Positions 24,643 to 31,930 of a stretch of 64,000 bases of DNA are shown in pieces. The notes beneath the pieces were generated by a model that saw only the letters and a list, made by a program, of their open reading frames with translations, searched no databases and was not told where the DNA came from. The position numbers and the translations under genes were made by a program. The stretch's first letter is position 1. The number at the start of each line of letters is the position of its first letter. The DNA comes from a cyanobacterium endosymbiont of Epithemia clementina EcSB (GTDB lineage: Bacteria > Cyanobacteriota > Cyanobacteriia > Cyanobacteriales > Microcystaceae): NCBI RefSeq assembly GCF_029919255.1, contig NZ_CP123991.1, forward strand, positions 1,543,110 through 1,607,109. Direction: 5' to 3'.

Positions 24643-25683
24643 ATGGTGACGGTATTAGCCATTGAGACAAGTTGTGACGAAACTGCCGTTGCAATTGTAA
24701 ATGATCGCAATGTTTTGAGTAGTGTAGTAGCCTCACAAATTCCTCTACATCGCACTTATGGTGGTATTGTTCCTGAAGTAGCCTCCCGCGAACATTTAAT
24801 AAACATCAATCTTTGTATTGAACAAGCGTTAGCCCAATCTCAAATTAGTTGGCAAGAAATTGACGGTGTAGCCGCTACTGTCGCCCCAGGATTAGTAGGG
24901 GCATTGATGGTGGGAATTACAACGGCTAAAACTCTCTCTCTTGTACACCAAAAGCCTTTTGTTGGCGTTCATCACCTCGAAGGCCACATTTACGCAACTT
25001 ATTTAAGTGAATCTACTTGGGAACCCCCATTTTTATGTTTGTTGGTATCAGGCGGTCATACCAGCTTAATTCGAGTTCAAGATTGTGGAGTCTATGAACA
25101 ATTGGGCACAACTCATGATGATGCGGCCGGGGAAGCATTTGATAAAGTCGCACGATTATTAAATTTAGGCTATCCAGGGGGGCCAGCCATTGATCGCCTC
25201 GCTAAAACCGGTAATCCTAATGCGTTTCTTTTTCCAGAAGGACGAATTTCTTTACCGGGAGGTGGCTATCATCCTTATGATTCTAGTTTTAGCGGTCTGA
25301 AAACAGCGGTATTGCGGTTAGTTCAGAAATTAGATAAGGGAGATAATGGACCATTACCCGTAGCTGATATAGCAGCCAGTTTTCAAGCAACTGTAGCACG
25401 CTCACTCACTAAAAAAACTATTGCCTGTGCTTTAGATTATGGTCTTCATTCTATTGCTGTTGGGGGAGGTGTGGCGGCTAATAGTGAATTGAGAAAACAA
25501 TTACAAGCATCAGGAGTTAAACACAATCTGAAAATTCATTTTCCTCCTCTAAAATTATGTACTGATAATGCTGCAATGATTGGTTGTGCTGCAGCTGCTC
25601 ATCTTTCCCGAGGACACACTTCTTCTTTAACTTTGAATGTAACTTCTCGATTGTCTATTAATAAAGTTATGCAACTTTATTAA
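24643..25683 (+). CDS. tsaD: tRNA threonylcarbamoyladenosine transferase TsaD
   Basis: Transfers the threonylcarbamoyl group to A37 of tRNAs reading ANN codons, working with TsaB, TsaE and TsaC. The 346-residue ASKHA-fold protein starts VLAIETSCDETAVAIV, then has PEVASREHL, the metal-binding histidines in GVHHLEGHIYA, LVSGGHTSL, and the family's GEAFDKVARLL and AVGGGVAANSELR segments. All are intact and the length is normal. It is a single-gene unit flanked by decayed sequence. Confidence 0.97.
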   Translation: MVTVLAIETSCDETAVAIVNDRNVLSSVVASQIPLHRTYGGIVPEVASREHLININLCIEQALAQSQISWQEIDGVAATVAPGLVGALMVGITTAKTLSLVHQKPFVGVHHLEGHIYATYLSESTWEPPFLCLLVSGGHTSLIRVQDCGVYEQLGTTHDDAAGEAFDKVARLLNLGYPGGPAIDRLAKTGNPNAFLFPEGRISLPGGGYHPYDSSFSGLKTAVLRLVQKLDKGDNGPLPVADIAASFQATVARSLTKKTIACALDYGLHSIAVGGGVAANSELRKQLQASGVKHNLKIHFPPLKLCTDNAAMIGCAAAAHLSRGHTSSLTLNVTSRLSINKVMQLY

Positions 25684-25989
25684 TAGACAATCGTTAACAT
25701 TTATTAAATTTTGTTTAAAACTTCTTTATTCACTAAAAAATAAAAAACTTTTAAGTAAATACTACGAACTATGGATAAGTCTTTAAAGTTAAATCTAAAA
25801 ATTTGTATAAAAAAATTCTATATACAATATGATGATAGTAGTTTCTAATTAGGTAGTTTATAAAACTAGCAGCATATAAACTATCCAATCATATCTTCAT
25901 AACTTACTAAATCAATTTTATTGATAACTTAATCAGTATTTATAGAAATTTAAAGTCATAAAATTTACAGGTATTTTTTTAGTTTTAAA
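25684..25989. other. AT-rich spacer after tsaD
   Basis: About 300 bases of AT-rich sequence with dense stops in all frames. No terminator-like hairpin with a T run, RNA gene or gene remnant was seen. Confidence 0.5.
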
Positions 25990-26547: not shown

Positions 26548-26573
26548 TCTATTTTCTAATAAAAGAATTGGAC

Positions 26574-26612
26574 AATAAAGCGGTAATTTTCTAAAAAAAT
26601 TACCGCTTTATT
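26574..26612. repeat. 17-bp inverted repeat
   Basis: Perfect 17-bp arms (26574-26590 and 26596-26612) containing AAAGCGGTAA, with a 5-base loop. The arm is GC-richer than its surroundings. Confidence 0.8.
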
Positions 26613-26920
26613 ATCGTTAACTCAAGGAGAAAAAATTTACAAATTTCTATATTTAGACTAGGAGATAGCCAATTAATCATAGATATTAACTTTAATAAAA
26701 TTCCATGTAGATGAAAGCTCCTAACTGAATAGCTAGATAAAGGAAAATTTATGTCTTAATTTAGGTAATTTTTTCCCCAGTAAAGATTAAGATAACTAAA
26801 TTATATCTTCTTAAGAAGGGGCTGATTAAACTAAGAGTAGTTAAAGTTTTTGCTAGCTCCAGGGCAATGTTATTGTTAAACTTGACTAAGTTTTATTTAT
26901 TTAAATTGGAAACTAAATAT

Positions 26921-26962
26921 TGAGAATAAACCTACGCCAAACGTGGCATAGGTTTATTCTCA
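26921..26962. repeat. 14-bp inverted repeat with inner stem
   Basis: Perfect outer arms TGAGAATAAACCTA (26921-26934) and complement (26949-26962), with an inner GCCA/TGGC stem. No neighbouring gene. Confidence 0.75.
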
Positions 26963-27468
26963 ACCAAACAAGAGGCGGTGATCATCTGTAACGAAGTAAA
27001 CATCATTAACAACAATCAACTTAAGAATAATCAACCTCATATTACAATTGACTAACTACAAATATTGACTTCAAATACTAGTTAAAAACATTAATTAGAT
27101 CTATTTTTATAGCTCTAATTAATAACGTAACTGAAGCATAGCTAACAATAGTATCGGTCTGGCTAAAGGAATATTATTTATTGTTTGTGTAGGTAAGCTC
27201 AAAGTTTGAGAGGACAATAACTATTCATCTATATTCTTTTTTTTATAAAACTGAACAATGATTACTGTTATTACTACTCTTAAATAAGTTTTTTATAAAA
27301 AAAGGAATATTCTAACCTAAATAAATATAATTTAACCCCAGATGATTTGATAGAGATCAAAAACGATAACCCGGATTATCTTCACTTTTAAATATCTGGA
27401 TCATCGATATAGTTAAGGACAATGTCGCTATTTCTATAAATAACCAACTACAAAGAGTATTCCTTGAT

Positions 27469-27644
27469 GTAAAACTATCGAGAGCTACAAAATCTATGGG
27501 AACCAGCAATATGGTGACGCAATACTTGAATACTCAAGCATAAATTATTGTAAGAAGTCTACCAACTTCCTACCTCAAATACCAAAATCTATAACTAAAG
27601 AATGTCATATTGAGCAATTGCTGGAAATGTTTCCTCCTGACTAG
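27469..27644 (+). pseudogene. possible LysM-like protein fragment
   Basis: An open stretch reads KTIESYKIYGNQQYGDAILE and continues through YSSINY, FLPQIPKS and IEQLLEMFPPD to a double stop. The pattern KIYGNQQYGDAILEYN followed by PQIPKS resembles a LysM repeat (KIYGDxxYWxxIxxxN...LxIP). No start codon is present and the upstream frame is closed by a stop, so this is a fragment. The family link is only suggestive. Confidence 0.35.
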
Positions 27645-28257
27645 TAGTTAATAGCCCTAAAGAGATTACCACTATAAAAACTCTCAATAATAAAAGCCAG
27701 ATCACTCTTAATTCTGCGATCGACTCTTGTAGTATTCGGGGAACTTTAGCGGTGGAAAGTTAACTTTAAGGAAGTTTAAGCAGAATTTTAGGACGTTTTA
27801 GTATATTTTTTTGAGAAAAAGTAGAGATAACTACATAAGAAAAGGAACAAGTTAAATTTTAACCGCACAGTTGTTTTCCCTGGGTATCAGACAACGGCTA
27901 TAACTGTAACTACTATTTTAACCTTTCTACAAGAGAAGAATAAGTAAAATTCACCCGAATGATACATTTAATTTGAAGACTCAGATAACCTGTTTAGACC
28001 TAATATTAACCAACTTCATAATCCTGAAATAAACCCTTCTAGCAAAACATTTTTAGTTGCTTTTAAATCAATCTAAATTATTGAATTATCGCTTATCTAT
28101 CGTAGTCTTAAAAACTATTTAGGTATGAGGAGTTAAGAATAATTATTTATTGCTACTTTTTTAATCCTTCATAATAGGTTAAATAAAAATAGTGTATTAA
28201 CTACTTTAATTAAGCTAAACCCTACTTAATAGAGTGATTGCCTAGAGAGCATACTTT
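27645..28257. other. gene-poor region
   Basis: About 600 bases with no supportable gene; dense stops on both strands. It ends at the large palindrome beside the glutaredoxin-like gene. Confidence 0.5.
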
Positions 28258-28311
28258 TACATTAGAGAGTGATGCATAAAAAATATTTTTTATGCATCAC
28301 TCTCTAATGTA
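28258..28311. repeat. 54-bp perfect palindrome overlapping a coding end
   Basis: A perfect palindrome with 27-bp arms and no loop, centred on AAATATTT. Its right arm encodes the last six codons and stop of the glutaredoxin-like protein; its left arm lies beyond the stop. It is the longest inverted repeat noticed in the window. It could be an unusually long terminator stem or the product of an inverted duplication of the gene end. Confidence 0.92.
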
Positions 28312-28559
28312 TATTTTTGTAGTAATTGCTCCAATCTAGCAACGGAAAGACGGGGAGAAGGACGGGGAATTATTTTTTCAGTCTTTCCCCATTTTTGATA
28401 CAGAACAGGAACTTCATATTGATAGGCTTTGAACCAATCCTCACGAGTTGTGATATCTCTAATTTCTACGTTGACATTTAGAGTTTTAACCTGTCCTAAT
28501 TTTTCTTTTAGTCCTTCACATAAATGACAACCAGGTTTACTATAAAGAATTAGTTGCAT
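28290..28559 (-). CDS. glutaredoxin-like thiol protein
   Basis: An 89-residue thioredoxin-fold protein of the DUF836/glutaredoxin-like group. The redox motif is CHLC at residues 11-14 in YSKPGCHLCEGL, followed by VEIRDITTREDWFKAYQYEVPVLY with the cis-proline before the VPVL strand. The C-terminal end RLEQLLQKYTLESDA is formed by the large palindrome, so its last residues may be recently changed. The role is presumably thiol-disulfide exchange in the cytosol; partner unknown. It stands alone. Confidence 0.85.
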   Translation of the reverse strand: MQLILYSKPGCHLCEGLKEKLGQVKTLNVNVEIRDITTREDWFKAYQYEVPVLYQKWGKTEKIIPRPSPRLSVARLEQLLQKYTLESDA

Positions 28560-31265: not shown

Positions 31266-31859
31266 TTATTCTGGTCGTTCTGAAATTTCTGAGAAAGATT
31301 CACTAACCATTGGGAGATTATGGGAAGAAACTGGTAACTTAGGAGGATTATTACCTTGGTACGTTGAGGGTCGTACTTGCTGGTTAATTTGCCCCATCAA
31401 ACTGGCCATTTCCAAGGCATTAAGAGCATAATTCCAACCCAAATTGCTTTTAATTCCAGCTCTTTCCAGAGCTTGTTGCATAGTATCGGTGGTTAAAACC
31501 CCAAAAATTACCGGAATGCCTGTTTGAAAACCCACTGCTGCTATCCCTTTAGCAACTTCTGCGGCTACATAATCAAAGTGAGGAGTATGTCCTCGAATCA
31601 CAGCCCCCAAACAAATGATGGCATTATAACGATGAGATATAGCTAGTTGACGAGCCACTAAAGAGATTTCAAAACTCCCTGGGACCCAAATATAATCAAC
31701 TTGATTGCTGTCAGGCTCAACATTGATACCGTGCCGTTTTAAACAATCCTGACAACCTGATAAAAGTTTTTCGGTCACTAGGTCATTAAAACGACCAATA
31801 ACGACGGCAAAGCGTAAGGTAGATAGATTTTGAGTAAAAGTTCCCTCGAATGTTGTCAT
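31266..31859 (-). CDS. ribH: 6,7-dimethyl-8-ribityllumazine synthase
   Basis: Penultimate enzyme of riboflavin synthesis; forms an icosahedral or pentameric assembly. Conserved segments are present: VVIGRFND near residue 19, [40 protein letters not shown] with the catalytic His, and [17 protein letters not shown]. At 197 residues it has a C-terminal polar extension of about 35 residues beyond the usual core. Its upstream neighbour on the same strand is the broken psbZ. In Synechocystis psbZ and ribH are also adjacent, so the ancestral order is kept. Confidence 0.96.
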
Positions 31860-31902: not shown

Positions 31903-31930
31903 GTAGAGGTCAACAGCTGTTGACCTCTAC
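31903..31930. repeat. 28-bp perfect palindrome
   Basis: Perfect palindrome, 14-bp arms, centred on CAGCTG and containing AGAGGTCAAC. It lies between ribH and the psbZ remnant, about 45 bases upstream of the ribH start. Its GC content is much higher than the surroundings, so it could be a terminator or protein-binding site. Confidence 0.8.

Follow-up and report, generated by a model that had tools for sequence, protein, structure and literature searches.

Rickettsia palindromic elements and REP and MITE repeats are multi-copy families of palindromic DNA that may overlap genes, and a Rho-independent terminator has its stem at a gene's 3' end. Passages of four papers describe quasipalindrome correction by template switching in E. 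coli and yeast (PMC7202029, PMC3820800, PMC8794818, PMC8604942). In the mitochondrial coding palindromes of Nematomorpha, long perfect repeats are gained and lost between species and, according to passages of the study concerned, which also name the Rickettsia elements, are thought to be maintained by conversion without a function (PMC6649704). The genus 'Cyanobacterium' is named among those with extremely over-represented coding-region palindromes, in passages that do not state the organism meant (PMC4060949).

The locus described here belongs to the genome G000, a single contig of 3,072,807 bases whose close relatives are the cyanobacteria living as spheroid bodies (diazoplasts) in two diatoms, Rhopalodia gibberula and Epithemia turgida; the window, that is, the whole stretch of DNA analysed, covers 64 kb of it (1543110-1607109). 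G000 and likewise G003 (2.48 Mb) are most likely spheroid-body or diazoplast genomes, and the four diazoplasts compared are these two together with G005 and G002, which we take to be the R. gibberula endosymbiont and the E. turgida endosymbiont EtSB. The six high-palindrome genomes are the four diazoplasts plus G013 and G021 (1.44 and 1.49 Mb), presumably UCYN-A and called 'UCYN-A-size' below, and the five low-palindrome relatives are G001 (putatively the unicellular cyanobacterium SU2), G006 (4,679,413 bases, probably Cyanothece PCC 8801), G011, G015 and G016. Genes are ORF and Markov-model predictions rather than curated annotation.

A perfect palindrome over the end of a glutaredoxin-like gene

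The palindrome at positions 28258-28311 of the window is real: its 54 bases consist of an outer, non-coding arm (28258-28284) and an inner arm (28285-28311), each of 27 nt, which are 100% complementary with a spacer of 0 nt. A first-pass annotation had read one arm as the last six codons and stop of a glutaredoxin-like gene, and the sequence bears this out, the inner arm carrying codons 84-89 (TLESDA), with the last base of codon 83 ahead of them, together with the stop (28290-28292) and 5 bases past it. The gene (28290-28559, minus strand) encodes 89 aa that match Pfam family PF05768 (DUF836) over residues 2-81, and an NCBIfam search of the protein gave no name. As single-stranded DNA the palindrome folds at -24.9 kcal/mol, a value reached by 0 of 200 shuffles (mean -3.1, sd 1.6), and its score is the highest among the 18 near-perfect inverted repeats of the window that score at least 14, where three shuffles gave 1, 0 and 0.

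Searches of its own genome with 17 arm bases found exact matches confined to the two arms of the palindrome and, at up to 3 mismatches, 5 matches versus 4 for a reversed-pattern control. Membership of a repeat family (RPE, REP or MITE) was rejected, given an exact copy at a single locus and 3-mismatch matches at control level. A search of the plasmid collection with the palindrome gave no match.

Alignments with G005 and G002 run without gaps through the entire palindrome, and the orthologous site forms 27/27 pairs in G000, 16/27 in G005, 13/27 in both G002 and G003 and 6/27 in G001. Random non-coding 54-mers of G005 (5380 in all) average 8.2 pairs, with 19 of them reaching 16 and 262 reaching 13. 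With the pair counts of the sisters above the random average, the perfect palindrome most likely developed out of an inverted repeat that was imperfect. G000 is unlike both G005 and G002 at 11 positions (5 in the outer arm and 6 in the coding arm), all of which are paired in G000. The first-pass suggestion of a correction resembling gene conversion holds in the sense that two existing arms were made perfect by substitutions in both, with no insertion. An inverted duplication of the gene end, which had also been put forward, or the insertion of a palindromic mobile element, is suggested at first sight by 54 bases of perfect palindrome, one arm of which is coding, but is contradicted by the gap-free alignments of both arms with G005 and G002, and with the arm absent elsewhere in the genome and unmatched in the plasmid collection we find this origin hardly credible.

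A tree of 34 window genes (7,662 aa) groups G005 and G002 with a support of 100, and a five-gene tree with G001 as outgroup places G003 outside (G000,(G005,G002)), with a support of 97 for G005 and G002. The states common to these two sisters could therefore be derived, and the palindrome would then have been perfect in the common ancestor, retained in G000 and decayed in the sister lineages, a history that gains some weight from 3 of the 11 differing positions, at which G003 has the same base as G000. However, G003 sides with G005 and G002 at 5 of the 11 (2 in the coding arm and 3 in the outer arm) and with neither at the other 3, in an alignment which has one gap across the palindrome and is thus less certain than those of G005 and G002 and not final, and G003 itself forms just 13 of the 27 pairs. 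Ancestral perfection is accordingly held to be improbable.

Perfection of an older, imperfect repeat also bears on the encoded protein, whose palindrome-coded tail falls beyond the Pfam match and is variable in length and sequence in a comparison of 30 loci that includes the one in the window. The C-termini are ...KYTLESDA in G000, ...KYTS in G005, ...KYISEKRG in G002 and ...KYVLGQEEQK in G003. The first-pass annotation had raised both the possible novelty of the last residues and the opposite case, namely homologues sharing them without the palindrome; the G000 tail is unlike the other three, and its residues are not common to homologues. The tail is non-conserved and would have been rewritten as the arms became perfect, and the overlap with the gene end would be tolerated because the tail lies outside the conserved domain.

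Palindrome excess, turnover and placement in symbiont genomes

Repeats were counted at an arm score of at least 14 and a loop of at most 10, excluding arms of at most two letters (which in G002, for example, reduced 22 repeats to 19). The four diazoplasts hold 230 palindromes in 623 kb of sampled non-coding DNA (0.37 per kb), versus 4 in 109 kb (0.04 per kb) in the five relatives, or 4 in 135 kb when G038 is added. Over all sampled DNA, repeats numbered 89 in 464 kb of G000, 76 in 480 kb of G005, 35 in 220 kb of G002 and 36 in 180 kb of G003, and with repeats wholly inside predicted genes excluded the densities per non-coding kb were 0.39, 0.32, 0.35 and 0.49, respectively. By the same measure the UCYN-A-size genomes reached 0.65 (G013) and 0.34 (G021), and the relatives 0.04 (G001), 0.11 (G006) and 0 (G016, G011, G015 and G038). 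The non-coding DNA of G000 contained 82 palindromes versus 0-2 in 20 shuffles, which control for composition and leave the age and constraint of the DNA uncontrolled; non-coding G+C is 0.27-0.28 in the diazoplasts versus 0.33-0.40 in the five relatives, and the diazoplasts hold far more non-coding DNA, the amount of unconstrained DNA differing as well. No report of a palindrome excess in diazoplasts was found in the literature searched, which included diazoplast papers and mostly excluded subscription papers and bioRxiv preprints. Predicted genes of G000 wholly contain four perfect inverted repeats with 15-17-nt arms (L136:10435-10472, L140:802-848, L148:2785-2823 and L153:17000-17037), both arms of which may be coding.

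A second perfect inverted repeat of the window (25648-25693; 21-nt arms, 4-nt loop) overlaps the 3' end of tsaD (24643-25683, plus strand, identified by Pfam) and forms 15/21 pairs in G005 and 14/21 in G002, suggesting that it has likewise been perfected or lost. Beside the palindrome, the non-coding stretch is filled by what is left of a large gene (26555-28066). SU2 has a homologue whose reading frame is still open (1,560 aa, L045:477-5159) and in which a Pfam search found no domain. One perfect inverted repeat with 17-nt arms (26574-26612) lies inside these remains, and another with 20-nt arms and one mismatch (26920-26963) lies between pieces of the same decayed gene. A further palindrome with 14-nt arms (31903-31930), some 44 bases before the start of a gene that we take to be ribH-like (31266-31859, minus strand), pairs 14/14 in G005, 13/14 in G002 and 12/14 in G003, and this conserved site is perhaps a binding site.

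Within the DNA compared, a spanning G005 alignment exists for 22 of the 89 G000 repeats, 3 of which are paired to at least 90% in G005. At three loci (L144:3635-3676, L144:4319-4358 and, in the UCYN-A-size pair, L165:12485-12545) one arm was rewritten and the other conserved, with length changes; in the first of them the right arm is 21/21 identical in G005 and the left arm 16/21, with four extra bases in G005. The G000 repeat L143:8815-8856 (19-nt arms) pairs at 18/19 positions in G005 although each side of its stem has changed, a pattern that either selection or arm homogenisation could produce. One-way template switching as a general rule was not supported, the arm asymmetry of 22 repeats (out of 25 aligned, 3 being excluded for a flank identity below 0.6 or a lack of variation) being equal to that of paired flank controls (mean statistic 1.65 and 1.65). 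At 28258-28311 the changes lie in both arms, and rewriting in a single tract is not shown.

Its place at a gene 3' end, together with a very stable predicted RNA hairpin (-35.8 kcal/mol in G000 versus -5.6 at the G005 site), would also suit an intrinsic terminator or a 3'-stabilising RNA hairpin that would owe its length and continued perfection to selection acting on the transcript; the first-pass annotation had likewise considered a terminator stem grown into the coding region. A scan for the terminator consensus returned 12 sites versus 3.8 expected, the palindrome among them, on the plus strand only, which is antisense to the gene; on the gene's own strand no T-tract directly follows the stem. 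Among the 230 diazoplast repeats, 9 overlap gene 3' ends versus 11.9 (sd 3.0) under random placing, and 21 are found no more than 50 bases from such an end (22.7 expected, sd 4.7). Gene 5' ends are overlapped by 0 (11.7 expected, sd 3.0) and have 10 at a distance of up to 50 bases (24.1 expected, sd 4.8). Gene starts in the diazoplasts are protected, and gene ends carry no preference. T-tracts occur beside 21 of 85 repeats in G000 (0.25, background 0.27) and 18 of 75 in G005 (0.24, background 0.26), and the divergent spacers of G000 carry 0.35 repeats per kb, similar to the convergent (0.42) and tandem (0.39) ones.

Selection on RNA should favour G-U pairs. In 108 repeats of same-strand spacers, which were scored more laxly and with more mismatches admitted, 15 G-U versus 13 A-C mismatches were counted on the transcript strand. 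Transcript-level selection gains some ground from the three repeats nearly fully paired in G005, including L143:8815-8856 with its changes on both sides, and from the UCYN-A-size genomes, where 21 of 39 repeats are no more than 50 bases away from the 3' end of a gene versus 9.4 (sd 2.4) expected and part of the repeats may be terminators. In one of these two genomes a hairpin with 45-nt arms (L161:16367-16459) is matched by 44/45 pairs retained in the other. For the palindrome itself, with no T-run after the stem on the gene's strand and, in the diazoplasts, T-tracts at background, we regard a terminator or selected RNA hairpin as unlikely. A mutational process at the DNA level is favoured because the diazoplasts show no 3'-end enrichment and no G-U preference, and because two of the repeats lie in a dead gene.

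Repair functions and RNase HII

Loss of a hairpin nuclease or of mismatch repair was rejected as a cause, SbcD, RecJ and MutS being above the cut-off in 39/39 genomes. SbcC had matches in 39/39 and was above the cut-off in 32/39, the UCYN-A-size G013 and G021 falling slightly below it but with full-length matches. RecG was above the cut-off in 12/12 genomes and RecQ in 10/12, the misses being again G013 and G021, so that RecQ is present in all four diazoplasts. Loss of ExoVII (xseA) was non-discriminating, with no match in the six symbionts nor in the low-palindrome G006, G011 and G038.

Passages of a yeast study report that quasipalindrome-perfecting mutations become more frequent when RNase H2 is lost and less frequent when RNase H1 is lost in addition (PMC3820800). 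RNase HII was picked after this report. Since eight families of nucleases or repair proteins, RNase HII among them, were tested ahead of RNase HI, a degree of coincidence has to be allowed for in what follows. It had no match in 6/6 high-palindrome genomes and is present in all five low-palindrome relatives, and RNase HI is present in 12/12 genomes tested. In a wider set RNase HII was found in 92/108 genomes; besides the six symbionts, the ten with no match were G029, G038, G044, G047, G060, G061, G071, G075, G078 and G087, some of these assemblies being incomplete. Among them, G038 and G061 have 0 palindromes in 100 kb each and G087 has 4 in 100 kb; G034, which has RNase HII and belongs to the same genus as G087, has 0 repeats. 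The control G059 also has 0, but its non-coding G+C of 0.21 is unusually low, perhaps owing to masked letters, and no weight is placed on it.

The absence of RNase HII is therefore a suggestive correlate of high palindrome density, and its loss alone is not sufficient: since three genomes lacking it have few or no palindromes, a second condition, such as AT-rich neutral DNA kept for long, would be needed. The six high-palindrome genomes perhaps represent only two independent losses. We see a slim chance that RNase HII was lost and RNase HI kept in the diazoplasts, and separately in the UCYN-A-size genomes, and that the ribonucleotides left unrepaired led to template switches perfecting inverted repeats throughout the genome, those at gene ends among them.

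Proposed process and comparison with known systems

Our preferred reading, to which we assign a probability of about 0.65, is that an imperfect repeat was homogenised by a DNA-level process acting across the diazoplast genomes, the overlap with the gene end being due to chance and carrying no gene-specific function. The starting point would be an inverted repeat, older and imperfect, that already spanned the end of the glutaredoxin-like gene. It may form a hairpin or cruciform in which, while the DNA is replicated or repaired, one arm is copied from the other, either by quasipalindrome correction through template switching or by mismatch repair within the hairpin. Several events, or mismatch repair within the hairpin going either way, would fit better than a simple template switch. 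The same process would operate across the diazoplast genomes, mostly in decaying non-coding DNA. How the process works at the molecular level, and that it leaves no functional element, is what we infer from the comparisons above, the palindromes being most likely a by-product of DNA copying or repair rather than a signal. In these terms there is nothing unusual about the palindrome at 28258-28311 itself; the interest lies in the genome-wide process that produced it.

A single palindrome is a curiosity, but this one leads to a genome-wide signature, with organelle-like nitrogen-fixing symbionts carrying about 10 times more long near-perfect palindromes per non-coding kb than the sampled relatives. 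If the process is mutational, diazoplast genomes would amount to mutation-accumulation experiments done by nature, in which quasipalindrome correction can be followed, and would offer a candidate genetic correlate testable in laboratory bacteria. A caution also follows: neither a hairpin where a gene ends nor correlated substitutions in a stem have to imply a selected RNA structure.

Unlike Rickettsia palindromic elements and REP or MITE repeats, the palindrome is single-copy, and unlike Rho-independent terminators it is missing a T-tract on the gene's strand and belongs to a class of repeats that is not enriched at diazoplast gene 3' ends. A published survey likewise places a disproportionate number of endosymbionts (28 of the top 200) among the genomes richest in inverted repeats, although it deals with whole-genome frequency, counts short repeats and relates them to G+C, in passages that contain neither diazoplasts nor orthologous sites (PMC10434271). 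The palindromes of Nematomorpha, as described in passages of that study, have both arms coding and reach 284 bp, whereas those reported here are mostly non-coding and the locus has one coding arm only, which lies beyond the Pfam match rather than in conserved protein (PMC6649704). There is also a close likeness to quasipalindrome correction, in which, according to the passages cited, multi-base changes templated by the other arm make an imperfect inverted repeat more perfect and coding sequence can be rewritten (PMC7202029, PMC3820800, PMC8794818, PMC8604942). A difference is that here both arms changed and a single-event tract is not shown for the locus. What is new with respect to known quasipalindrome correction is the density of such palindromes across whole symbiont genomes.
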